Below are positions 1-55,179 of a stretch of DNA of 64,000 nt, piece by piece. The notes beneath the pieces are model-generated. The model did not search any database, was not told the origin of the DNA, and was given only the letters and a program-made list of their open reading frames with translations. Position numbers and translations under genes: made by a program. The stretch's first letter is position 1, and the number at the start of each line of letters is the position of its first letter. This stretch comes from Planctomycetota bacterium (GTDB lineage: Bacteria; Planctomycetota; Planctomycetia; Pirellulales; UBA1268): positions 1 through 64,000 of the forward strand of contig VGZO01000021.1 in assembly GCA_016872555.1 (NCBI GenBank), given 5' to 3'.

Positions 1-122
1 GAGCCGTCGAGCACGTCGATCATGTCGCCATCGACGATCTTCACCACCTTCCCGGTGAGCGTGCCGGCGAAGGCGACGGAGGCCAGGACAAGGGATAGGG
101 CGATGGCAATGGCGGGACGCAT
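1..122 (-). CDS. Thermonuclease-like (SNase) secreted protein, N-terminal part only
   Basis: Only the first 40 or so codons lie in the window; the gene runs off the left edge. The ATG at 122 opens a hydrophobic leader (MRPAIAIALSLVLASVAFAG), a convincing signal peptide ending in AFA. It is followed by GKVVKIVDGDMIDVLDG, which matches the first beta-strands of staphylococcal-nuclease-fold proteins, whose usual motif is V-x-x-V-x-D-G-D-T-I. The window therefore probably holds the start of an exported micrococcal-nuclease-like enzyme cutting DNA or RNA outside the cytoplasm. The catalytic Arg/Glu residues are off the edge, so activity cannot be judged. It sits on the left side of the tRNA fragment and may belong to the integrated element proposed there. 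Confidence 0.6.
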   Translation of the reverse strand, partial: MRPAIAIALSLVLASVAFAGTLTGKVVKIVDGDMIDVLDG

Positions 123-279
123 TGGCGGGGTTCCTCGCGACACCCCGCACCCGGTGGGTTCATCAGCGTACCCGAGCCAGGCGCGACGCAAACCCTAGGC
201 CACTGCCCGCCCGCCTGCCGGCAAAGCGACCAGTCCTCGAGATCAGCGCCAACAGAGCCGCCTGCCTGCCACGCCGCGG

Positions 280-301
280 TAGCCCAACAGTAGCCCAGCA
301 A
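280..301. repeat. Two tandem 11-bp direct repeats, candidate integrase arm sites
   Basis: TAGCCCAACAG (280-290) is followed immediately by TAGCCCAGCAA (291-301), differing at two positions. They lie about 40 bp from the truncated tRNA. Tandem short direct repeats beside a tRNA-derived core are typical of arm-type binding sites of tyrosine integrases. The assignment is inference from position and pattern only. Confidence 0.35.
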
Positions 302-339
302 TACGGTAACCCCAAAAAACATCGCAAAAAAGCGTCATC

Positions 340-401
340 GGACTCTGACTGTAAATCAGATGCCCCGAAAGGGGTTGCGGGTTCGAATCCCGTGCCCTCC
401 G
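340..401 (+). tRNA. tRNA-Tyr (GTA) 3' fragment; 5' half missing
   Basis: The anticodon arm (TCTGA, loop CTGTAAA, TCAGA; anticodon GTA at 351-353), a class II variable arm (CCCC-GAAA-GGGG, 362-373), the T arm (GCGGG-TTCGAAT-CCCGT) and the 3' acceptor strand GCCCTCC plus discriminator G at 401 are all present. The matching 5' acceptor strand (GGAGGGC) and the D arm are absent; upstream is A-rich sequence instead. This is what remains when an element integrates into the 3' part of a tRNA gene: the complete tRNA would lie left of the window and this copy marks the distal att site. It is probably not a functional tRNA. Confidence 0.8.
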
Positions 402-434
402 CTCTAGTTTTCCCGAGTGAAATCGACGAAAAGA

Positions 435-456
435 GCCCCGTAACTGGGGCTTTTTT
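435..456 (+). terminator. Rho-independent terminator after the tRNA-Tyr 3' end
   Basis: GCCCC (435-439), loop GTAACT, GGGGC (446-450) and then six T (451-456) form a classic intrinsic terminator 34 bases after the tRNA 3' end. It supports the view that the right side of the fragment is the original chromosomal tRNA locus. Confidence 0.75.
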
Positions 457-593
457 CATGCGCGGGCCGCGTCGAGCGGCGGTCAAGGTCCGATCGGCGC
501 GGGCGAGCCCAGGACGACGCGTCGGCGTGTCACGTTTGGGCGACGCCCTCGCGATGCTGGCCGGGCACCGCGGCCACCCCGCGCGACACGCCA

Positions 594-621
594 CCGCGCC
601 CGGTTTTGTCTCCGGGCGCGG
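594..621. terminator. Strong GC hairpin downstream of the FGE-like/DUF4114 gene
   Basis: CCGCGCCCGG (594-603) and CCGGGCGCGG (612-621) form a perfect 10-bp stem with an 8-nt T-rich loop. It lies 17 bp past the stop codon of the leftward gene at 639, so it may end that transcript. There is no good U-run on the minus strand, so it may be only a stabilising 3' hairpin. Confidence 0.45.
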
Positions 622-638
622 CGCGGTGTCGCAAGATG

Positions 639-2828
639 TCAAAGGGTAAACCGGCGCCGCTCCCGCAGGCCGAGGGCACCGGCGACGAGGGCCACGACGC
701 CCGCCAATCCCGCGGGGTCGATCTCGGGGATCGCGGCAGGACTCGTCACCGCTGCCTCGACTCCCTCGACCGCGAAGATCAGGTCGTTGAACGCGTTGTC
801 ACAGTAAAAGTCGCCGGGCAGCGAGGCGCGGGAGATGTCTTCCCACGCGAACATGTTCGAGCGCTTCCCGGTGGCCTTCGACGTCCCTGCGAAGCTCATC
901 AACTGATCCCTGCCACCGGGATTGGCCGCCGCGTAGCCGAAGAACGGCCAGCGCTTGGGACCGCCGATCCCGAACGTCGCCGAGCCGACTCCGGTGACGG
1001 CGAAGCTGCCCGGACTCGTCTGGAAGTTCGCCAGCGTATCGTCAGGTATCAGGAAGAACCCGAGCAGGTCGCCGCCGTTGACGGTCTTGGTCGTCGTCGC
1101 GCCGGGATCGTGGATGACGTCGTTGAACACCAGCACGGCGTTGCCCGCGGCGAGCGCGGTGGTGGCATACGCCTGTTTTCCCGCCGTCGTACTCGTGTCG
1201 ATGGAGTTGAGTGCCGGGAGGTACTTGTAGTAGCCGAAATTGAACCGGAACGAGCCGGTGTCGGCATGCATCCGGAAGGTGAGCGTGACCGGCCCCGAGC
1301 CCTGGACTTGATAGGCCTCGAGCGCCGTCTCGGTGAGGGGGGGAAACGCGTTGGTACCATACTCCAGGTTCAACCCGTTTCGCACCGCGCCGTAGCTGGC
1401 CGGTGACGACAGGTACTGCACCGTGTCGGTCGTGGCGGCGGCGACCGGTCGGCCCAGGATCAGCGCCGCGGCCAGGGCTGCCGCAGCCTGCGCGGCGGTC
1501 ATCAGGATCCGCGGCGCCCGCCTTTGCGGAGCAGTGGGCGACTGTCTCGCTGCGGCGGAGGCCCCGCGCCGGCCGCGCCGCCGCTCGAACCACGCGAGGA
1601 ACCCCGCGACGATGGCGACGACGGTGCCCGCTGCGCTTGGATCGATCACGGGGATGGAGGTTGGAGCGATCGCCGAGAGCCGGATCCCGAAGAAATCACC
1701 CCGCGCCGCGGCCCCGGCGTCAGATTTTGATGACCCTGCCATCGCCGCTGAATCGAACGCGAAATTCCCGCCGCGCAGAATGCGGCGAGTTGCGTCGAAG
1801 CCTGCCTCGTCGGTCCATTCAGCGACATTACCGCCCATGTCGAAGGCACCGTACGTGCTCGGGCCTCCATTGGTACCTACCGTGGTCACATTGCCATCTT
1901 TACCGCCCCAGTCAGCTCCGCGATTGAAGTTCGCGGAGTTTCCGCCGGGGACCGGACTGATCCCTCCGAGCATGCCGATGCCGGTCGAAGTCGCCATCAC
2001 TGCGGTCGGGGGCGAGTCGCTTTGCGTCGGGTATGTCCAACACCCTGCCGCCGCGGCCCCTCCTTTGAAATACGCGGCCTTTTTCCACTCGTCGGCGCTG
2101 GGAACCCAAAAGACCGCTGCGGAGTTCCTTTGTGGCGCTATACCACTGGCGATATTCGTGATTGTATAGGCGCCCTGGTTGACCCCCGTCGCACCAGCAG
2201 CACTGGAAGGGTATGTCTGCTCTCCATTCTGAAGCCAATTGGCGAACTGAGCGGCATTGAACCAGCTCGTGAACGTGACCGGCTTGTCGCCCATGTTGGG
2301 CTTGACGAGATATCGACTGCCGGAAGTGATTCCGGTGTTCTCGATTCCACCGAAGAATCTCATCAGTGAGGAGTATGTGTCGGCAGGGTTCGTGCCCTCG
2401 GGATCGACTGCGTTGAGGAACGCCGCGTAATTGTCATTCGTCAATTCGTTCTTCATGATGCGGTATGAAGTGGCGACCGCACCGTATCCGTAGGCGTCGG
2501 GTAGGTTGCCAGAGTCGCCGACGGTGACCCAGTCGATACCGATCGCCGAGGCACTTCCGCACCAGATCCGGCTGACTCCGAAGATGGCGATGAAAGCTGA
2601 CAGCAGGCTCACGCAACGCCAACGTTGTGCGCGAGGCGGCGGCAAGCGGGTGAGCCGCGCGGAAATCGATGCGGCCGGGAGCGGACTTCCATGCGGACCT
2701 GGTCGGTCGCGGGCGCCAAGCCACTGATACGAGTCAAGGGAGTCCAGTGGCAGCGATGCGGAGAAGTCATTGTCACGGGAACGGGAGTGAAACACGAGCA
2801 GGCCTCCTGGGGAAGTGATGGCGAACAT
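639..2828 (-). CDS. Secreted FGE/sulfatase-modifying-factor-like protein fused in frame to a DUF4114 protein; two sorting signals
   Basis: One uninterrupted 729-residue frame reads as two exported proteins end to end. Residues about 85-393 follow a signal-like stretch (VSLLSAFIAIFGVSRIWC) and match the formylglycine-generating-enzyme fold (FDMGGNVAEWTDEA, RRILRGGNFAFDS). The C-terminal region has no cysteine pair where FGE has its catalytic cysteines, so sulfatase activation is unlikely. Residues 394-420 form a first sorting signal (IPVIDPSAAG, hydrophobic stretch, ERRRGRRG). Residue 443 (ATG at 1502) begins a second signal peptide (MTAAQAAAALAAALILGRPV), then a DUF4114 domain (VNGGDLLGFFLIPD; NAFNDLIFAVEG), then a second sorting signal (AIPEIDPAG...RERRR). 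It could be a fusion by stop-codon loss, or two coupled cistrons with the second starting at 1502. The N-terminal start is uncertain: residues 1-80 look non-coding and a GTG at 2612 may be the true start. Confidence 0.75.
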   Translation of the reverse strand: MFAITSPGGLLVFHSRSRDNDFSASLPLDSLDSYQWLGARDRPGPHGSPLPAASISARLTRLPPPRAQRWRCVSLLSAFIAIFGVSRIWCGSASAIGIDWVTVGDSGNLPDAYGYGAVATSYRIMKNELTNDNYAAFLNAVDPEGTNPADTYSSLMRFFGGIENTGITSGSRYLVKPNMGDKPVTFTSWFNAAQFANWLQNGEQTYPSSAAGATGVNQGAYTITNIASGIAPQRNSAAVFWVPSADEWKKAAYFKGGAAAAGCWTYPTQSDSPPTAVMATSTGIGMLGGISPVPGGNSANFNRGADWGGKDGNVTTVGTNGGPSTYGAFDMGGNVAEWTDEAGFDATRRILRGGNFAFDSAAMAGSSKSDAGAAARGDFFGIRLSAIAPTSIPVIDPSAAGTVVAIVAGFLAWFERRRGRRGASAAARQSPTAPQRRAPRILMTAAQAAAALAAALILGRPVAAATTDTVQYLSSPASYGAVRNGLNLEYGTNAFPPLTETALEAYQVQGSGPVTLTFRMHADTGSFRFNFGYYKYLPALNSIDTSTTAGKQAYATTALAAGNAVLVFNDVIHDPGATTTKTVNGGDLLGFFLIPDDTLANFQTSPGSFAVTGVGSATFGIGGPKRWPFFGYAAANPGGRDQLMSFAGTSKATGKRSNMFAWEDISRASLPGDFYCDNAFNDLIFAVEGVEAAVTSPAAIPEIDPAGLAGVVALVAGALGLRERRRFTL

Positions 2829-4376
2829 GAGTGATGGGGTTGCGGTCGAATCGGGTGCGGTTACGAAGCGGGTGAAGACGGTTGCGTAGGCTCCGCTGCG
2901 GGCAACGCCATGGAGACGTTGCTCGAGCGCTCCGGCAGCCTTGATCTCCAGATCGGGTACATCGCGGTACGGCGGACTGCCGAAGCGCGTGCCGTCGCGC
3001 TCGGCAGGTTCGTTACCGTGACTGGCGGCGGACGTGACTGCCGCAGAACGCAGTCCGGGACGCGCCGATGTCGACTGCGTTGCTGCCGATGAACGGCTTT
3101 GCCTCTGTCCGCGTGAGCGCGCGGCGCGGCTGCCCGACGAGGCCGTCGATCGAGATCACGACGGTGAACGCCAGGTTGCCGAGGGCCGTCGCGCTGCCAT
3201 CCGGCGCGTGCACGTTCTGTGGCATCGCAACCGCCGGTGACGTCAGTAACGCTGCGAGTCAGGCGTGCACGGGCGATGTGTCCGGGCGGCGTCGCGAACG
3301 AGGCAGCGAGCGCATTGTCCACGCCCCCCGGGGGCTGGTCGCCGCCGGTGACACGGGGATTGGAACACACCGCGTCGAACAGGACGCGGAGCGTGACAGG
3401 CGGAATCGTCGGCATCGGATGGGCTCCATGAAGAGCCCCCGCGCACACCCGCGGCGCTGCACCGTGCGAAACGCCGAACCGGTCACCGGCGCCGACCGAC
3501 ACCCCAGGCGCGGCGTCCATCCGGCGCGGCGCACGCGGACGGAGAGCCCCACGAGTGGAGTGGCGATCGACCCGGTCACGGCCGTGACGGCTCCGCCGCG
3601 CGCGGCGGCGGTCGGCCACCCGGAAAGCGCGGTATCTCCCGCGCCTTTCGCGTGGACGATTCCCGCCGGAGGCATGCCGGCGCGACGGCTCGCCAGCGCG
3701 CTGCCTGACGGCGGGCGCAGGAGACCGTGCGAGAGCAAGCACCGCGCGAGCGGCTCGGGAACGGCGCAGCCAAGCCGCCGCATGCTCCGATCGATCGGAG
3801 CATGGCCCGGCACCCGGCCGATGAAGGCCGAATGCGGGCGCGGAACCGCCGCACCACTCGTCACCGTGACACGTGTGACCAGTTCGTCAGTTTCGCACGA
3901 GGCGAAACACGACAGCGGGTGCTTGCAGGAGCGGTTCCTTGATCGATTTCAGGACACGTTCACGTCGAATCTCGGACAAACATCCCCCGCACCACGACAG
4001 ACCCTCCCGGTGCCCCCGAGCCATGGCGCGGCCGCCGGGGGCAGACGCCACCCAGCGGCCACGCTCTCGAGGCTGCACTGGCCGATTCGGTTCAGGACGC
4101 GTCTCCTCGTCCCGGGCCATCTCCAGGTGCCGGTCGATGGTGCGGGCCGTGCTGCCGGTGTGCCGGAGGGCGTCGATCGGTGATCGATTCCCTTCCTGCA
4201 ACCGGGAGTGGCGCCGGGCCCAGTGCCCGCACGCCTTTCTCCATCTCTAGAGACGCACGGCGCGGCGAAAGTTAGCCACGAGAATTTTTTTCTTGCGTTT
4301 TTCCCGGAGATGGCAGAAACGGAGGGCCGCGGTAGGCTGCCGACGAGTTCCCCGGGGAAGGGGGTGAGGAGGGGGC
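2829..4376. other. 1.5-kb stretch without a convincing gene; possible decayed coding DNA
   Basis: Open frames exist on both strands but all are Arg/Pro-rich translations typical of GC-rich shadow frames. Short minus-strand stretches look more protein-like (for example around 3013-3225, with NLAFTVVISIDGLVGQ), which suggests remnants of a broken gene; I cannot name its family. The words GTGAC/GTCAC occur about ten times between 3010 and 3890, well above a rough composition-based expectation of two to three. A perfect palindrome lies at 3781-3804. The A/T-rich patch at 4276-4303, just before the sigma gene, may hold its promoter, but I see no clear -35/-10 pair. Confidence 0.4.
3781..3804. promoter_or_regulatory. 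Perfect 24-bp palindrome
   Basis: CATGCTCCGATC is followed directly by its exact reverse complement GATCGGAGCATG. Flanking bases do not extend it. A loop-free palindrome of this length in an intergenic region fits a dimeric regulator's operator better than a terminator. It lies about 570 bp upstream of the sigma-factor start, so the target gene is not obvious. Confidence 0.5.
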
Positions 4377-5081
4377 ATGCCTCAACCGACGGCAGGGACG
4401 TGCGGGACTCGTGACGACGGTTGTGGACCGGTTTCGTTGCTGTCGGCCGACGCTTCGGCTGCGTCTCCGATCGCGTCGGCCTGCCTGGCCGACGAGCGGA
4501 GGCTCGGCGACTTGATCGCCGCCGCCCGCCGCAATGAGCCTGGCGCGCTCGGCGAGCTGCTCGTCGCTGCCCGCGGCTACCTCGTCCGGATTGCCGATGG
4601 CCGGATCCCGACCGAGGTCCGGGCCCACCTGGCGCCGTCCGACGTCGTCCAAAATACGACCGTCGCCGCCCACGCCGCGTTAACCTCGTTTCAGGGAACG
4701 ACCGTGGCGGAGTTCTATGGTTGGCTCCGCGCGATCCTTGCCAACGACGTCTTCGACGCGCTGCGCCGGCAGCGGTCGTACGATCGTGCCGTGGTGCTCG
4801 GGCCCGGCTCGGCCGCGGCGCGTGCCCCGGAACGCTCCCCGACCGCCCCCACGCGCCCCACCGAGGCGTCGGCGATCCGCCGCGACGACGCCATGGTCGT
4901 CGCCCGCGTGCTCGACACGCTCGGTGCCGAAACGCGCGAGGTCATGCGCCTCCGCTACTGGGAAGACTTGCCGTTCGCCGAGATCGCCGTCCGGCTCGGT
5001 CGGTCCGACAACGCGGTGCGGAAGCTGTGGTACCGTGCTGTGAAACGGCTGCAGCTTGCACTCAGCGCCGGCGACGGCTGA
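4377..5081 (+). CDS. ECF-type RNA polymerase sigma factor, planctomycete STK-linked group
   Basis: A 234-residue protein with sigma region 2 at about residues 35-125 (LIAAARRNEPGALGELL, then HLAPSDVVQNTTVAAHAAL and EFYGWLRAILANDVFDALR) and region 4 at about 175-230 (ETREVMRLRYWEDLPFAEIA, a helix-turn-helix, then VRKLWYRAVKRLQLAL). It should direct core polymerase to a dedicated promoter set. GAGGAGGGGG just ahead of the ATG is a strong ribosome binding site and fixes the start. The Ser/Thr kinase gene follows in the same direction after about 200 bp, without an obvious anti-sigma factor. Planctomycete genomes contain ECF groups adjacent to Ser/Thr kinases; by analogy the kinase may control this factor, which is inference. 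The N-terminal 30 residues are low complexity. Confidence 0.88.
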   Translation: MPQPTAGTCGTRDDGCGPVSLLSADASAASPIASACLADERRLGDLIAAARRNEPGALGELLVAARGYLVRIADGRIPTEVRAHLAPSDVVQNTTVAAHAALTSFQGTTVAEFYGWLRAILANDVFDALRRQRSYDRAVVLGPGSAAARAPERSPTAPTRPTEASAIRRDDAMVVARVLDTLGAETREVMRLRYWEDLPFAEIAVRLGRSDNAVRKLWYRAVKRLQLALSAGDG

Positions 5082-5277
5082 CGGGGCCGGTTGTGGACAT
5101 CGTGATCCGGCGCTAGAGGCGGCGGCCGACACCTCGGAGTGATCGTGGGTCGTTCGGCGGTGTGTTGCGACGGAAACCGGTCACGGATGATTGGTTCCAC
5201 GCTCCGGCAGCGGGTGGAGGACGAGCTTCCCGAACCGGTCGGGAGCTGCCCGCCGCGACAGGGAACGGGATCACGCG

Positions 5278-8200
5278 ATGGCACCCGACACGCCGATTCC
5301 CTGCGGTGAGCAGGCGCCGACGCCCCGCGAACCGGCCCCCACGGAGCCGCCACGGCGCGACTCCCTTCCCGCCGACGAAGCGCTGCCCGCCGATGCCGCG
5401 CGCCTCGCCGACATCGACGACCGGCTCGCGGGGCATCGGCCACCCGGCGAGGGCGAAGCCGGCGGGGAGGATTCGCCGGAGCCCGATCTCCCTGCGGGGC
5501 TCGATGCCATTTTGCTGCTCCGGCAGATGGCCGCCGAACAGGCGGGCAACGCCGGCGCCGATCAGGGGGCGATGCCGCTGCGGATCGGCCGGTTCGCCGT
5601 GGTCCGCGAGGTGGGGCGCGGCGGGTTCGCGCGGGTCTACGAGGCGCTCGACACGCGGCTCCAGCGCGGCGTGGCGCTCAAGGTCGCCCGGCCGGAGGCG
5701 GTGCTGCCCGCCGGGGCACGGCGCCGGTTTCTCCGCGAGGCGGAGCTCGCCGCGCGGCTCGACCATCCCCACGTGGTCACGATCCACGAGGCGGGGGAGG
5801 CCGACGGCTGCCTGTTCATCGCCGAGGAATTCTGCACCGGCGGCAGCCTCGCCGACTGGCTCGACTCCCGCCCTGGCGCGCTCGAGCCGCGCACCGCGGC
5901 GCGCGTGGTCCACGCGCTCGCCGCGTCGCACGCTTTCGGCATCGTCCATCGCGACATCAAACCGGCCAACGTGCTCCTCGTCGCCGATCCCGACGGCGTC
6001 CTCGAGGAACCCGGTGCCGCGCCGGGCGGTGGCCGCTGGAAGGTGAAGCTCGGCGACTTCGGCCTCGGAAAGCTGCTCGCCGACGAGGCGAAGCGCGCCA
6101 ACGTCACCGACCTCACGCGTTCCGGCACCCGGGTGGGTACGCCGGCCTGGATGGCCCCGGAGCAGGTCGACCACGCGATCGGGCCGGTCGGCGCCGCCAC
6201 CGACATCCACTCGCTCGGCCTGCTCCTCGACCGGCTGCTCACGGGGCGCTGCTGCCAGGCCGGGGCGAGCGAGGCCGAGACGCTGCGGCTGGTGCTGTTT
6301 GCCGAGCCGGTGGCCGCCGACCGGATCGTTACCGGGGTGCCCGCCGACCTCGCCGCGGTCGGGCTCCGCTGCCGCGCCAAGCGCCCCTCGGAACGCTACG
6401 CCACCGCCGCCGATCTCGTCGCCGACCTGCGCCGCTTTCTGGCCGGCCAGCCGACGCTCGTGCGGCCGCTCGGGGTCGCCACGCGGGTGTGGCGCGCCGC
6501 ACGCCGCCGCCCGGGAATCGCCGTCGCGACGAGCGTGGCGGTCGCCGCGATCGTCGTCGCCGGTGGCATGGTCGTCGTTCAGCAGCGGCAGCAGACGCTG
6601 CTCGACAGCCGGGCGGCCGAGATCCGCGGCCACCAGGCGGCGGCCACGCTGCGGCGCGGGTTCGAGGCCTGGGCCGGTGGGGATGCCGCCGGGGCGCTGC
6701 GCCAGCTCGACGACTGCCGGTCGCTCGATCCGGCGCTCGCCGGGTCGGTTGCCGGGCGGTGGCTGCTGGCCCGCTGCAACGGCGAGCTCGACCGGCTTCC
6801 GGCCGGTAGCGCCCCACTCCACAAAGTCGTCGTCGCGCCGGACGGTCGGACGGTCGCTGCCGGGGCTGCTGACGGCCGGCTGCACGTGTGGCGGCTCGAC
6901 GACCATGGGGCGGTCGACGGGCCGCCGGTCGTCACCCGGCCCCACGACGAGATCAACGACGTCGCCCTCAGCCCCGACGGGATGCGCGTCGCCAGTGTCG
7001 GCCAGGACGGCCGCGCGGCCGTGTCCGACACGGCGACCGGCGCGCTCGTCGCCGAGCGCGACTTTGCCGACGGTCCGCTGTTCGGCGTCGGCTGGGCGCC
7101 CGACGGCATGGCGGTGGCCGTCGGGGGCGAGGGACGGACAGTGTGGGTGTGGACCCCCGATGGCTCGTCCACCCCTCGGGCGCTCGATCCCTTCGCCGCC
7201 GCCGCCGGTGGGAATCCTGGCGCCGAGGATGCGGCTGATCCCGAGATCGAGTGCCTGGCGTATCTCGACGCCCGGCGGATCGTCGTGGCCTGTGGCCGGC
7301 GGGTGGTGGTGTGCGATGCGGTGACCGGGATGGTGGAGTGCGAGCTCGAGGGGCACGCCGGCAAGGTGACGAGCGTGGCGGCCAGTCCCGATGGTACGCG
7401 GCTGGTGACTGCGGGCACCGATCGACAGCCGCGGCTGTGGGATCTCCCTTCCGGCACGCTGGTCAGATCGCTGCCGTTGCATCCGGTGTGGGTCGCGGGC
7501 TGCCGGTTCTCGCCCGACGCGGCGCGGATCGCGACCGGCTGCCGCGACGGCGTGGTCCGGCTGTTCGATGCTGCCGACGGCGCACCCGTGACGACGTTCG
7601 TCGGGCATCCCGGGCGCGTGTGGGACGTGACGTTCGAGCCGCGTGGCACGATCCTCTCGGCCGGAAACGACGGCACGCTGCGGCGCTGGGACGCGGACAG
7701 CTCGCGGGGCCTGGCCGGCGTCCACGAGCTGCCCTCCCCGCGGGGGCCGCTGATGGGCGTCGCGGCGCTGGGGGGCGGTCGGTTCGGGGTCGTCGGACCG
7801 CTCTTGCCGTCGTCGACCGGCGCGGACGAGATCACGACGCCGTCGATCACGCTGGTCGGAGCCGGGCCCGGCGAGCGGATCTCCGCCGAGTCGAGTTCCG
7901 GGCGGATCGCGACCAGCGGCGGCACGTTCGAGATCACGACGCGCCTGGGCGCTGTCACGCGCCCCATCCCGGCCGACGTCATCGGTGAGGCGATGCTGTG
8001 GACGGCGCCCGACGAGCTGCTCATCGGAGCGCGCGACGGCCGGTTGCTCCGGTGGCATGACGACACCGGCGTGCTCGAGACGCTCGACGACACCGGCAGC
8101 GGGATCGCGGTGCATGCCCTTGCCCATGGCCCCGGTGGCCGACTGGCCGTGGCGACGGCGAAGACGGTGACGCTCTACGAGACCTCCGACGCCGGCGTGC

Positions 8201-8622
8201 CGCGGCGCGGCACCGGGCGCCGGCTGGTCGAGCTGCCGCCATCGACCGGGAGCGTGACACGCGTCTCCGTCAGCCCCGACGGCACGCGTCTCGCGATTGG
8301 CACCCACGTCGGCGAGGTCCTGTGCTTCGACACGGCGACAGGGCTGCCGGTCGGCACGTTCGCCCGGCACACGCACGGCATCCGGGCGCTCGAGTGGTCG
8401 CCGGAGGGGCTCGTCCTCCTCTCGGCCGACGCCGACTGCGTGCGGTTCTCCGACGTGCGGACCACGACGGTGTTCGACGAGATCCGGCCGGGAGCCACGG
8501 TCGGCGGGGCCTGTTTCGGGGTCGCGGCCGACGGTGCCGATCTGCTCGTGATCGTGGGTGCCCGCGGCGGCGACAACGGCTGGACGGGAGTCGTCCGGTT
8601 TCCCCAGCCGGCCGAGCGCTGA
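5278..8622 (+). CDS. Membrane-anchored Ser/Thr protein kinase with C-terminal WD40 repeats
   Basis: 1114 residues from the ATG at 5278; an upstream in-frame start (5191) is possible but gives an Arg-rich non-conserved extension. The kinase domain spans about 102-390: Gly-rich loop (VGRGGFARVYEA), catalytic lysine (VALKVARPEA), HRD loop (IVHRDIKPANVLL, about 222-234), DFG (KLGDFGLGK, about 260) and GTPAWMAPEQ in the activation segment. All catalytic residues are present, so it should be active. One membrane helix (about 414-438, VAVAAIVVAGGMVVV) separates the cytoplasmic kinase from an extracytoplasmic WD40 beta-propeller region (about 510-1110, with recurring LSPDG and LW/VW repeat ends) likely to bind protein partners or sense a signal. 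It follows the ECF sigma gene and ends 22 bp from the convergent addA-like gene. Confidence 0.88.
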   Translation: MAPDTPIPCGEQAPTPREPAPTEPPRRDSLPADEALPADAARLADIDDRLAGHRPPGEGEAGGEDSPEPDLPAGLDAILLLRQMAAEQAGNAGADQGAMPLRIGRFAVVREVGRGGFARVYEALDTRLQRGVALKVARPEAVLPAGARRRFLREAELAARLDHPHVVTIHEAGEADGCLFIAEEFCTGGSLADWLDSRPGALEPRTAARVVHALAASHAFGIVHRDIKPANVLLVADPDGVLEEPGAAPGGGRWKVKLGDFGLGKLLADEAKRANVTDLTRSGTRVGTPAWMAPEQVDHAIGPVGAATDIHSLGLLLDRLLTGRCCQAGASEAETLRLVLFAEPVAADRIVTGVPADLAAVGLRCRAKRPSERYATAADLVADLRRFLAGQPTLVRPLGVATRVWRAARRRPGIAVATSVAVAAIVVAGGMVVVQQRQQTLLDSRAAEIRGHQAAATLRRGFEAWAGGDAAGALRQLDDCRSLDPALAGSVAGRWLLARCNGELDRLPAGSAPLHKVVVAPDGRTVAAGAADGRLHVWRLDDHGAVDGPPVVTRPHDEINDVALSPDGMRVASVGQDGRAAVSDTATGALVAERDFADGPLFGVGWAPDGMAVAVGGEGRTVWVWTPDGSSTPRALDPFAAAAGGNPGAEDAADPEIECLAYLDARRIVVACGRRVVVCDAVTGMVECELEGHAGKVTSVAASPDGTRLVTAGTDRQPRLWDLPSGTLVRSLPLHPVWVAGCRFSPDAARIATGCRDGVVRLFDAADGAPVTTFVGHPGRVWDVTFEPRGTILSAGNDGTLRRWDADSSRGLAGVHELPSPRGPLMGVAALGGGRFGVVGPLLPSSTGADEITTPSITLVGAGPGERISAESSSGRIATSGGTFEITTRLGAVTRPIPADVIGEAMLWTAPDELLIGARDGRLLRWHDDTGVLETLDDTGSGIAVHALAHGPGGRLAVATAKTVTLYETSDAGVPRRGTGRRLVELPPSTGSVTRVSVSPDGTRLAIGTHVGEVLCFDTATGLPVGTFARHTHGIRALEWSPEGLVLLSADADCVRFSDVRTTTVFDEIRPGATVGGACFGVAADGADLLVIVGARGGDNGWTGVVRFPQPAER

Positions 8623-8644
8623 GTCGTCCCTGCCGTCGTCGCGC

Positions 8645-11600
8645 TCAAGCCAACTCGACGACCGCCGCGGAACGCATGAAGACCAGCGTCGTCGTCACGT
8701 GACGCTCGTCGATCGACAGCAGCCTGGCCACCGCATCGCGGTAGGCCTCGAGCTGCGGGGTGTAGAACGCTGTCTTGTCGGCGCGGATCCGCTGCCGCTC
8801 CGCCGGGGTCGCGCGCGCCGAATCGCCGATGCCGTCGAACTTGAAGTCGATCACCTCGGCGGCCACCGCCCGGCCGTCGCGGTGCCACTCCACGAGGCGG
8901 TCGACGATTCCCTGCACGAGGCCGTCGTCGACCGCCAGCGCGAAGCCGCGCTCGCGGCGCAGCACCGGAACGGCCGGACCGGGAGCGAGGCCGGTCCGCA
9001 CCAGCCGCTCCGGAAGGAGGGGGGCGGGTTCGGCGAGCAGCGCGGCGATCGCCGGGGCCGCGCACATCCGCCGGAAGTCGGCGCGGAGCGTGGCGACCTG
9101 ATCGGCCACCGCCGGGTGGTCGCGCGCGATGGTCGCCAGCGTGGCGTCGTCGGGGAGCGTTGCCGGCCAGCCGACCTGCTCGATCCAGGTGTGGAGCAGC
9201 GTGCCCACCGCACGGGCGGCGACCGAACCGGCATCGAGGAGCGCCCGCGCGGCCACGGCGCTGCCCCCTTCCTGCCCCGACGGCGTCCGCCAGGCCCTGC
9301 CGCGGCGCCGGCCCGTGGGCGGCAGCGGGGCGAGCCCCACCGGGCCGACGACGGCGCTGGCCGGCGCGGTGGCCGCCGTAGCCGTGGCCGTCGGGAGTCG
9401 GTCGTCGGCGGGATCGGTCCGGTGACCGACGGCGTAGAGGAGCGTGTCGGGGGTCGCGGCCGCGCCGGCCCCGAGTGTGGACCGGAGGATCCCGGCGATC
9501 GTCTGCGGTGCCGCTCCCGACCGCGGCCCCGCCGGCGCGATGATCACCTCGAGCGCCTGGATCGCACGCGTCATCCCCACGTAGAGCGTGCTGATCGATT
9601 CACGGAGCAGCGGGTGGGCGGCGCGCCTGTGGCAGTCGGGCCAGGGGGCGGGGAGCAGCGGTGCGACGTCGCCGTTGAGGCCGGTGAGCAGCCCGCGGAT
9701 CGGCGTTAGCGCCCGGCCGCGGACCACCGGACGATCGACCACGACCCGCGGATGGTGGGGTACGAGCTTCCGGTCGAGGTCGGTGAGGACGACGATGTCG
9801 AACTCGAGCCCTTTCGACTTGTGGATCGTCATCACCCGGATCGCCGCCGGCTCGGGGTCGGCGACGCGCTCGCTGCGGACGCGCGCCACGAACGGGGCGG
9901 TGCGCACCAGGCCCGCGCTGCCCCCATGGCGCACGTCGTGGTCGCGGGCCATGACGAGGAGCTGCTCGAGGCGCCGGCCGTCGCGGGCACCGGCGGCGGG
10001 CGTGAGGCGCGTGGCGAGGTCGCCAAGCACGGCCGCATGGCCGTCGTCGACGAGCCGGCGGCGCACCCGGTCGAGTGCGGCGAGAAACGCGGGCGACGGC
10101 TCACGGGCGACGGCGGCGGCGCCGTCGAGGGCCAAGTCGCCGGCCAGCACCGAGGCGCCGACGTGGAACCGGGCCACGGTGTCCGAGGGATGGTCGACGA
10201 GCGACAGCACCGAAAGGAGCAGCTCGACCGCGGGTGAGTCGGAGAGGGGCTGCCCCCCTTCGGCACTGGCCGCGATCCCGTCGCGGCGCAGCCGCGCGAT
10301 CACCTGCTCGGCGCCGGCGTTGGTGCGGACGAGCACGGCCACCGTCCGCCCCGGATTGGCCGTGGCGAGGTCGCGGGCGCGGTCGGCGGCGGCGCGGAAC
10401 AGGTCGGCGGCGGAGCCGTCGTCGGCCGGTGCGGTGCGCAGCCGCACCCAGCCGGCGAGGTCGCGGTTGCGCGCGGCGGCGACATGGGGATGGAACGACC
10501 GGTTCCACTCGGCGACCACCTCGGGCGCGTCGGCGAGCTGCGGGCAACCGGCCAACGCGCCGAACAGCGCGTTGACGGCTTCGAGGACCGCCGGGCTCGA
10601 TCGCCAGCTCTCGCGCAGCGACTGTTCCCGCAGCGGCACCGGACCGGCGGCGAAGAACCCGCCGAGGGCTTCGAACAGCGTCGCCTCGCCGCCGCGCCAA
10701 CCGTAGATCGCCTGCTTGGAGTCGCCGACCGCGAAGAACGTGCCGCCGGAGGTCGCCGTGTGCTCGGCGAGGCGCTCGAGGACGCGCCACTGCCCGAGCG
10801 ACGTGTCCTGGAACTCGTCGAGGAGCAGGTGCTTGGCGAACGGGATCCCGCGCCACCGCGCCGCGTCGAGCGTGCCGTCGGCGGCGGCGTCGCCGACGAG
10901 CCGCGTGACGTCGTCGAACGACACGACCCCGGTCCGGCGGACGAGGCCGTCGAGGGCGGTGGCGTGGCGGTCGAGCCACTCGCGCATCGCCCGCGTCTGC
11001 TCGACGATCCGGGCGATCACCGCCGTCCGGGTGACGGCGATCAGCACGCCATACGCCGCGACGACCTCGTCGGCGAGCGGCTTCTTGTAGTAGGTCGTCT
11101 CGCCGGCGACGAGCTTGGCGGCGATCCCGCTGCCGAGGAAGTCGCGAAACCGCCCGGCTTCGAAGGCTTCGAGGCTGGCCTCGTGTGCCGCGGCGATCTT
11201 CTTGTGCGAAAACGCCACCGTGCGGAGCGTAGCCACGGCCGCCGTGACATCGGCGGCGGCGGGGGCCGGTGGCACGGCGAGCGGCTCCCAGGCGGTCGCG
11301 TCGGCCTGGCGGTGGAGCGCGGCGAGGTCGGCGACGATCCCCCCGACCGCGTCTTCCAGGCCGCGCGTCGTGCCCCCTCCCGAGGCCTGGACGAGGAGCG
11401 TCGCCAGCGCCGCGGCGGTCGCCTCGCCGTCCTGGAGCGCGGCGTGGATCGCCCGGCGGCGCTGGCCCGCGACCTCCGCCTCGTTCCCCACGCCCCATCC
11501 CTCGGGCAGTCCGAGCTCGTACCGTGCCGCGTCGGCGGCGGAGACGAAGAACGCGTCGAGCGTGCCGATCGCCACCCGACCGAGGGCGCCGGTGAGGGTG

Positions 11601-54225: not shown

Positions 54226-55179
54226 ATGGGACGCGACGGGAATGCCATGGCGGGATGCCGTCAGACGACGCGGCGCGGCTGGATCGCGGCGACGGCCCTG
54301 GCGGCGGTGACGCCGCGCGGCCTGTCCGCCGCCGATCCGCCGCGACGCCGCGGTGCTCCACGGTTCGTCCCCGCGCTTGCCGCCTACGGCTTCCGGCAGT
54401 ACTTCCCCTGGTCGCGCGGCATGGCGCAGGCCGTCGCCGATCCGGCGCGGGCGCTGTCGATTCCGGGGTTCATCGACTACTGCGCCGACCACGGCTGCGA
54501 TGCCGAGCTGACCGCCTACTACTTCGATCCCGCCGTCGGGGACGCCGACCTGGCGGCCTTCCGCCGCCAGGCCCACCTCCGCGGGATCGCGATCGCCGGG
54601 ACCGCCGTCGGCAACCGCTTCACGCTCCCCGCCGGCCCGCGGCTCGACGGCGAGATCGCCGACGTCAAGCGCTGGATCGACCGCACCGCGCTGCTCGGAG
54701 CCGGGCACATGCGCGTCTTCGCCGGGCCGTCCGGCGACGGCCTCGACGACGCCGCCGCGCGGAGGCAGTGCATCGCCGCGCTCACCGAGTGCGCCGCCCA
54801 CGCCGCGACGCGCGGCGTGATGCTCGGCGTCGAGAACCACGGCGGCGTGGTCGCCGACCCCGACGGCCTCCTCGCGGTCGTCCGCGGCGTGGACAGCGAC
54901 TGGCTCGGGATCAGCCTCGACACCGGCAACTTCGTCTCGGCCGATCCCTACGCCGACCTCGCGCACTGCGCGCCCTATGCGGTCAACGTCCAGTACAAGG
55001 TGTCGATCCGCCGCACCGAAGGGGTGCCGGCCGAGCCGGCTGACGCACGGCGGATCGTCGGCATCCTGCGCGACGCCGGCTACCAGGGGCGCGTGGCGCT
55101 CGAATACGAAGAAGACGAAGATCCCTACGCCGCCGTGCCGCGGCACCTGGCGGCGCTGCGGACGGCGCTGGCAGGCTGA
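54226..55179 (+). CDS. Secreted sugar phosphate isomerase/epimerase-like TIM barrel
   Basis: 317 residues; GGGAGG six bases upstream fixes the ATG. A twin-arginine-like leader (TTRRGWIAATALAAV) suggests Tat export. The body is an AP-endonuclease-2/xylose-isomerase-like barrel: LSIPGFIDYCADHGCDAELT, HMRVFAGPSGDGLDDAAARR, GVMLGVENHGGVVADPDGLL (metal-binding Glu), WLGISLDTGNFVSADPYADL and GRVALEYEEDEDPYAAVP. Such secreted epimerase-like proteins are common in planctomycetes and probably act on sugars; the substrate is unknown. It follows mptG by 17 bp and may share its transcript, though no functional link is obvious. Confidence 0.82.
   Translation: MGRDGNAMAGCRQTTRRGWIAATALAAVTPRGLSAADPPRRRGAPRFVPALAAYGFRQYFPWSRGMAQAVADPARALSIPGFIDYCADHGCDAELTAYYFDPAVGDADLAAFRRQAHLRGIAIAGTAVGNRFTLPAGPRLDGEIADVKRWIDRTALLGAGHMRVFAGPSGDGLDDAAARRQCIAALTECAAHAATRGVMLGVENHGGVVADPDGLLAVVRGVDSDWLGISLDTGNFVSADPYADLAHCAPYAVNVQYKVSIRRTEGVPAEPADARRIVGILRDAGYQGRVALEYEEDEDPYAAVPRHLAALRTALAG

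Follow-up and report, generated by a model that had tools for sequence, protein, structure and literature searches.

Which tRNA gene gave rise to the partial tRNA found at positions 344-401, and what separated it from its 5' half? The window, i.e. the whole stretch of 64,000 nucleotides analysed here, is the beginning of contig C21 (bases 1-64000); the genome assembly has 4.47 Mb in 162 contigs, with 3.2% contamination. The original prediction took this sequence for the 3' end of a tRNA-Tyr marking the border of an integrated element that extends leftwards, a call that is right in the kind of boundary and its direction and wrong in the identity of the tRNA. The relevant features, with G002 and G003 denoting two relatives of the same genus, are the following:

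1-123, minus strand: 5' end of a gene for a secreted thermonuclease-like protein (MRPAIAIALSLVLASVAFAGTLTGKVVKIVDGDMIDVLDG...), with its ATG at 123-121; the contig start truncates the gene, which is probably cargo of the element.
124-343, no strand assigned: probable end of the element adjoining the attachment site, for which G002 and G003 have no equivalent upstream of tRNA-Ser(CGA).
279-300, plus strand: an 11-bp direct repeat present in two tandem copies (GTAGCCCAACA GTAGCCCAGCA); candidate arm-type sites of an integrase.
344-401, plus strand: displaced 3' part of tRNA-Ser(CGA), identical to that of G002 and G003 except in the anticodon (CG to GT).
351-353, plus strand: anticodon triplet GTA, which reads CGA in every same-genus and close relative as well as at the junction on contig C43.
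428-457, plus strand: intrinsic terminator originally belonging to the tRNA-Ser gene; it folds at -20 kcal/mol (z -5.8) and is kept in G002, G003 and G020.
639-2828, minus strand: chromosomal right-flank gene with an FGE-sulfatase domain and DUF4114, outside the element; its 3' end adjoins the intact tRNA in G003 too.

As originally described, only the anticodon stem-loop, the long variable arm, the T arm and the 3' acceptor strand with the discriminator base are present at 344-401. Comparison of these 58 bases with the tRNA-Ser(CGA) genes of G002 and G003 revealed two differences, both in the anticodon, and the alignment of the fragment plus terminator to the same loci extends over 117 bases (E values of 2e-34 for G003 and 8e-33 for G002). 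The fragment sequence was matched in 136 of the 146 related genomes searched, the best matches beginning at position 344 and most of the others no more than a few bases away, and ARAGORN identified the intact gene of these relatives as tRNA-Ser(CGA) or, for some weaker matches, as tRNA-Ser(GGA). The genome's own tRNA-Tyr lies intact on contig C7 and its body differs from the fragment. Read from its sequence, the displaced fragment is thus a serine tRNA body that resembles a tyrosine tRNA only by its anticodon, the former call being made because the triplet reads GTA. This GT-bearing version is absent from every other genome among the 72 of the family and the same-genus tRNA is intact, so that no relative was found to carry this fragment without an insertion; a 28-base form of the GT version had no match in the contigs of the genome collection, and neither phages nor plasmids matched the fragment. 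A match to tRNA-Sec at 324-395 was rejected as forced and below the cut-off. Elsewhere in the window, an odd tRNA called by ARAGORN at 54290-54384 with an undetermined anticodon, and missing from the hits of the Rfam tRNA model, is probably a false positive.

The other half of the gene was located on contig C43, which terminates at tRNA position 40 with the upstream flank and the 5' half of tRNA-Ser(CGA) (...CTCGAAATC; ...GGTCTGACTCGAAATC). In G002 and G003, the DNA upstream of tRNA-Ser(CGA) is orthologous to the 2.76 kb that precede this half. The 3' half starts at window position 344 and is preceded by 343 bases of foreign DNA. Among close relatives the uninterrupted site is found in G002 and, with both flanks, in G003, where the upstream flank, the intact tRNA-Ser(CGA), its terminator and the right-flank gene, seen at its 3' end, are contiguous. 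Positions 1-343 are therefore foreign DNA between the two halves of a single locus, and an insertion lies to the left of the displaced fragment. Searches of the assembly at the DNA level, by tRNA family and by pattern did not find a complete tRNA-Ser(CGA), only the 5' half on C43. To the right of the tRNA, about 8.2 kb (463-8658) separate the terminator from the next gene, a gap of about 90 bases in G002 and similarly short in G035; this interval contains the FGE-sulfatase/DUF4114 gene, an ECF-sigma-like gene and a kinase-WD40 gene, of which G003 shares at least the first. In another genome of the family, a contig (L068, the end of C212 in G068) stops within tRNA-Ser(CGA), immediately before the anticodon stem on its 5' side; what is left of the tRNA, its 3' part, carries substitutions and may be another displaced fragment at the same site.

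An intact intrinsic terminator was also described behind the fragment, and the strong hairpin at 428-457, kept in G002 and G003, corresponds to it. On the opposite side, the 5' part of the tRNA has indeed been replaced by unrelated DNA: the local score of the 88 upstream bases against the missing 5' part was 5.0, for a shuffle mean of 5.7, and 465 of 500 shuffles scored as high. The description of this upstream DNA as A-rich holds for about 310-330 but not elsewhere, the GC content being 70% at 201-300 and 52% at 301-400. The tandem 11-bp repeats, formerly given as 280-301, occupy 279-289 and 290-300 and end 43 bp before the fragment, or 46 bp before it if only the exactly repeated part (279-297) is counted. 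We read 279-300 as candidate arm-type integrase sites because the repeats of related elements sit at a like distance from their fragments; similar tandems occur by chance in 24 of the 639 100-nt pieces of the window. Among the 146 relatives, the 11-bp repeat pattern was matched at about the rate of its reversed control and never beside a matching tRNA fragment.

These observations make it very probable that an element integrated in tRNA-Ser(CGA) by an anticodon-loop exchange of the tyrosine-recombinase type, with 344-401 as the displaced chromosomal 3' part and the element to its left. The break coincides with one of the known integrase subsites (anticodon loop, T loop or T/acceptor junction), since the first bases of the fragment belong to the 5' strand of the anticodon stem and C43 breaks off on the 3' side of the anticodon; the anticodon loop is an established attachment subsite, the Islander survey counting 2083 anticodon-centred sites, along with 3760 islands that have 3' fragments (PMC4383910). 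At the left break point (C43) the chromosomal CG is retained, and at the right one (window) GT is followed by chromosomal sequence. On this reading, the integrative element entered the gene and now sits between the end of C43 and window position 343, a single crossover 3' of anticodon position 35 (at or 3' of position 36) being able to account for both junctions: the left one would keep the chromosomal CGA, the displaced fragment would receive two presumably element-derived anticodon bases, GT, and the tRNA would be restored at the far end of the element. A single exchange with an element-borne GT would make separate mutations unnecessary, the other bases of the 58 being unchanged. The overlap of such crossovers normally requires identity, and the two loop mismatches thus call either for a crossover 3' of them or for mismatch tolerance. 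Junction patterns searched in viral contigs and in genome contigs returned no matches. The insertion is of the ordinary tRNA-targeted kind, a common bacterial integration scar, with most of the element missing from the assembly.

The nuclease-like gene at the left edge of the window had been proposed as cargo. Its SNase assignment was made by eye from a signal peptide and the motif VDGDMIDV in 40 residues, which are too short for Pfam. Window positions 1-127 are 100% identical to bases 1-127 of contig C99, whose genes encode a small HTH_17 protein, a RepB-primase/DnaB-like protein, a ParB-like protein and a tyrosine integrase truncated where the contig ends; since its start is shared with this integrase-bearing contig, the nuclease-like gene is plausibly element DNA. 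The ends of contigs C62 and C90 likewise share exactly 127 bases, which identifies 127 as the overlap of the assembler (k=127), and such an exact overlap implies that C21 and C99 both adjoin one sequence, itself absent from the bin. The orientation of the nuclease gene relative to its neighbours in C99 versus C21 needs two copies or an inversion and counts against the integration proposed here. Neither the cognate integrase nor the far junction was found in the assembly. The gene did not emerge as recurrent cargo, the two other SNase-domain genes of the genome being dissimilar at the N-terminus and the weak nuclease-like matches in relatives adjoining no convincing tRNA fragment, and a search of genome contigs with the C99 integrase confirmed no relative. 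In G000, bases 1-281 of C62 and C90 (L029, L030) carry two different tRNA-Val genes (CAC and GAC), each followed by near-identical DNA that runs to the contig end; one element family may have a copy in each of these genes.

In related genomes, relatives of the C99 integrase are convergent with tRNA genes and their reading frame enters the target tRNA antisense in 23 of 25 cases; integrases running across attP are known from Mx8 and SSV (PMC4383910). The stop codon of these integrases often falls at the tRNA anticodon (L131-L159 and L161-L175, in related genomes of the order). Tandem repeats, mostly of period 12, are found no more than 200 bp from the tRNA in 16 of the 25, compared with 4 of 141 control pieces. 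Two C99-type elements with a mapped far end measure about 6.5 and 7 kb and leave 22-nt T-loop fragments, and in both 43 bp separate the end of the repeat from the fragment. Given that the mapped C99-type elements use the T loop and the window the anticodon loop, C99 may belong to another insertion than that of the window.

Among the alternatives, the one that survives best, although still unlikely, is that the common core was short and the tRNA was not rebuilt, tRNA-Ser(CGA) having been lost or replaced by a tRNA borne by the element. The failure to find a complete tRNA-Ser(CGA) in the genome is consistent with this, as is the end of C43 5 bases past the last mismatch, as if the sequences forked there. 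Moreover, the genome has a tRNA-Ser(UGA) that could read UCG, the reading of this codon by a UGA anticodon being established wobble, and tRNA-dependent lysogeny sets a precedent (PMC10865867). On the other hand, C43 simply ends and a rebuilt 3' half may sit in an unbinned short contig, and the assembly shows no replacement tRNA-Ser(CGA) either. Less probable again is a chromosomal rearrangement (inversion, translocation or transposition) that broke tRNA-Ser(CGA) without a site-specific element. The left side is seen for 343 bases only, in an assembly as fragmented and contaminated as stated above, which leaves some room for such an event; against it, the break lies exactly at the integrase subsite, the left DNA is common to C99 with its integrase/replication module, and integrases adjoin other tRNAs of this genome (tRNA-Glu on C97 and tRNA-Arg on C7). 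It would be more surprising still if the attachment site of the element were a serine-tRNA body with a tyrosine anticodon and the exchange sometimes resolved 5' of the anticodon; if this were true, a tRNA-Ser(GUA) would be built that would insert serine at tyrosine codons. Hardly credible, finally, is integration in a tRNA-Tyr gene as first envisaged, for which the GTA triplet speaks but against which stand the identity of all remaining bases to tRNA-Ser(CGA), the intact tRNA-Tyr with another body and the tRNA-Ser(CGA) 5' half ending C43.

Integration in the anticodon loop of tRNA-Ser(CGA) is therefore the reading that we favour. Besides correcting the identification from tRNA-Tyr to tRNA-Ser, it would add one more anticodon-loop integration scar for this bacterial group and indicate that element-derived anticodon bases can disguise the identity of a displaced fragment. 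The insertion also suggests a reason for the assembly break at this locus, and leaves general views unchanged.

Three known systems invite comparison. The small tRNA-adjacent elements of this order with C99-type integrases (e.g. L163 in G006 and L170 in G046) resemble the module linked to C99 in having HTH, RepB/DnaB-like and integrase genes, and share with the window a spacing of about 43-46 bp between tandem repeats and displaced fragment; they differ in leaving 22-nt T-loop fragments beside period-12 repeats of other sequence, whereas the window holds a 58-nt anticodon-loop fragment and period-11 repeats. The second is tRNA-dependent lysogeny, described for the mycobacteriophage Fionnbharth and others (PMC10865867). 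Here too a tRNA is split at the anticodon region, in our case by what would be a tyrosine integrase, possibly with a short common core; unlike in that system, neither phage genes nor a replacement tRNA are seen here, the interior of the element lying outside the assembly. The third comprises the Islander tRNA-targeting elements, characterized by a 3' tDNA fragment and an anticodon-centred 'A' subsite (PMC4383910). Unlike these, the window fragment has two non-target anticodon bases, and the intact tRNA and far-end integrase are not seen in the assembly; like them, it runs in the direction of the tRNA and keeps the terminator, with the break at the anticodon loop, the element 5' of the fragment and the empty site preserved in relatives.
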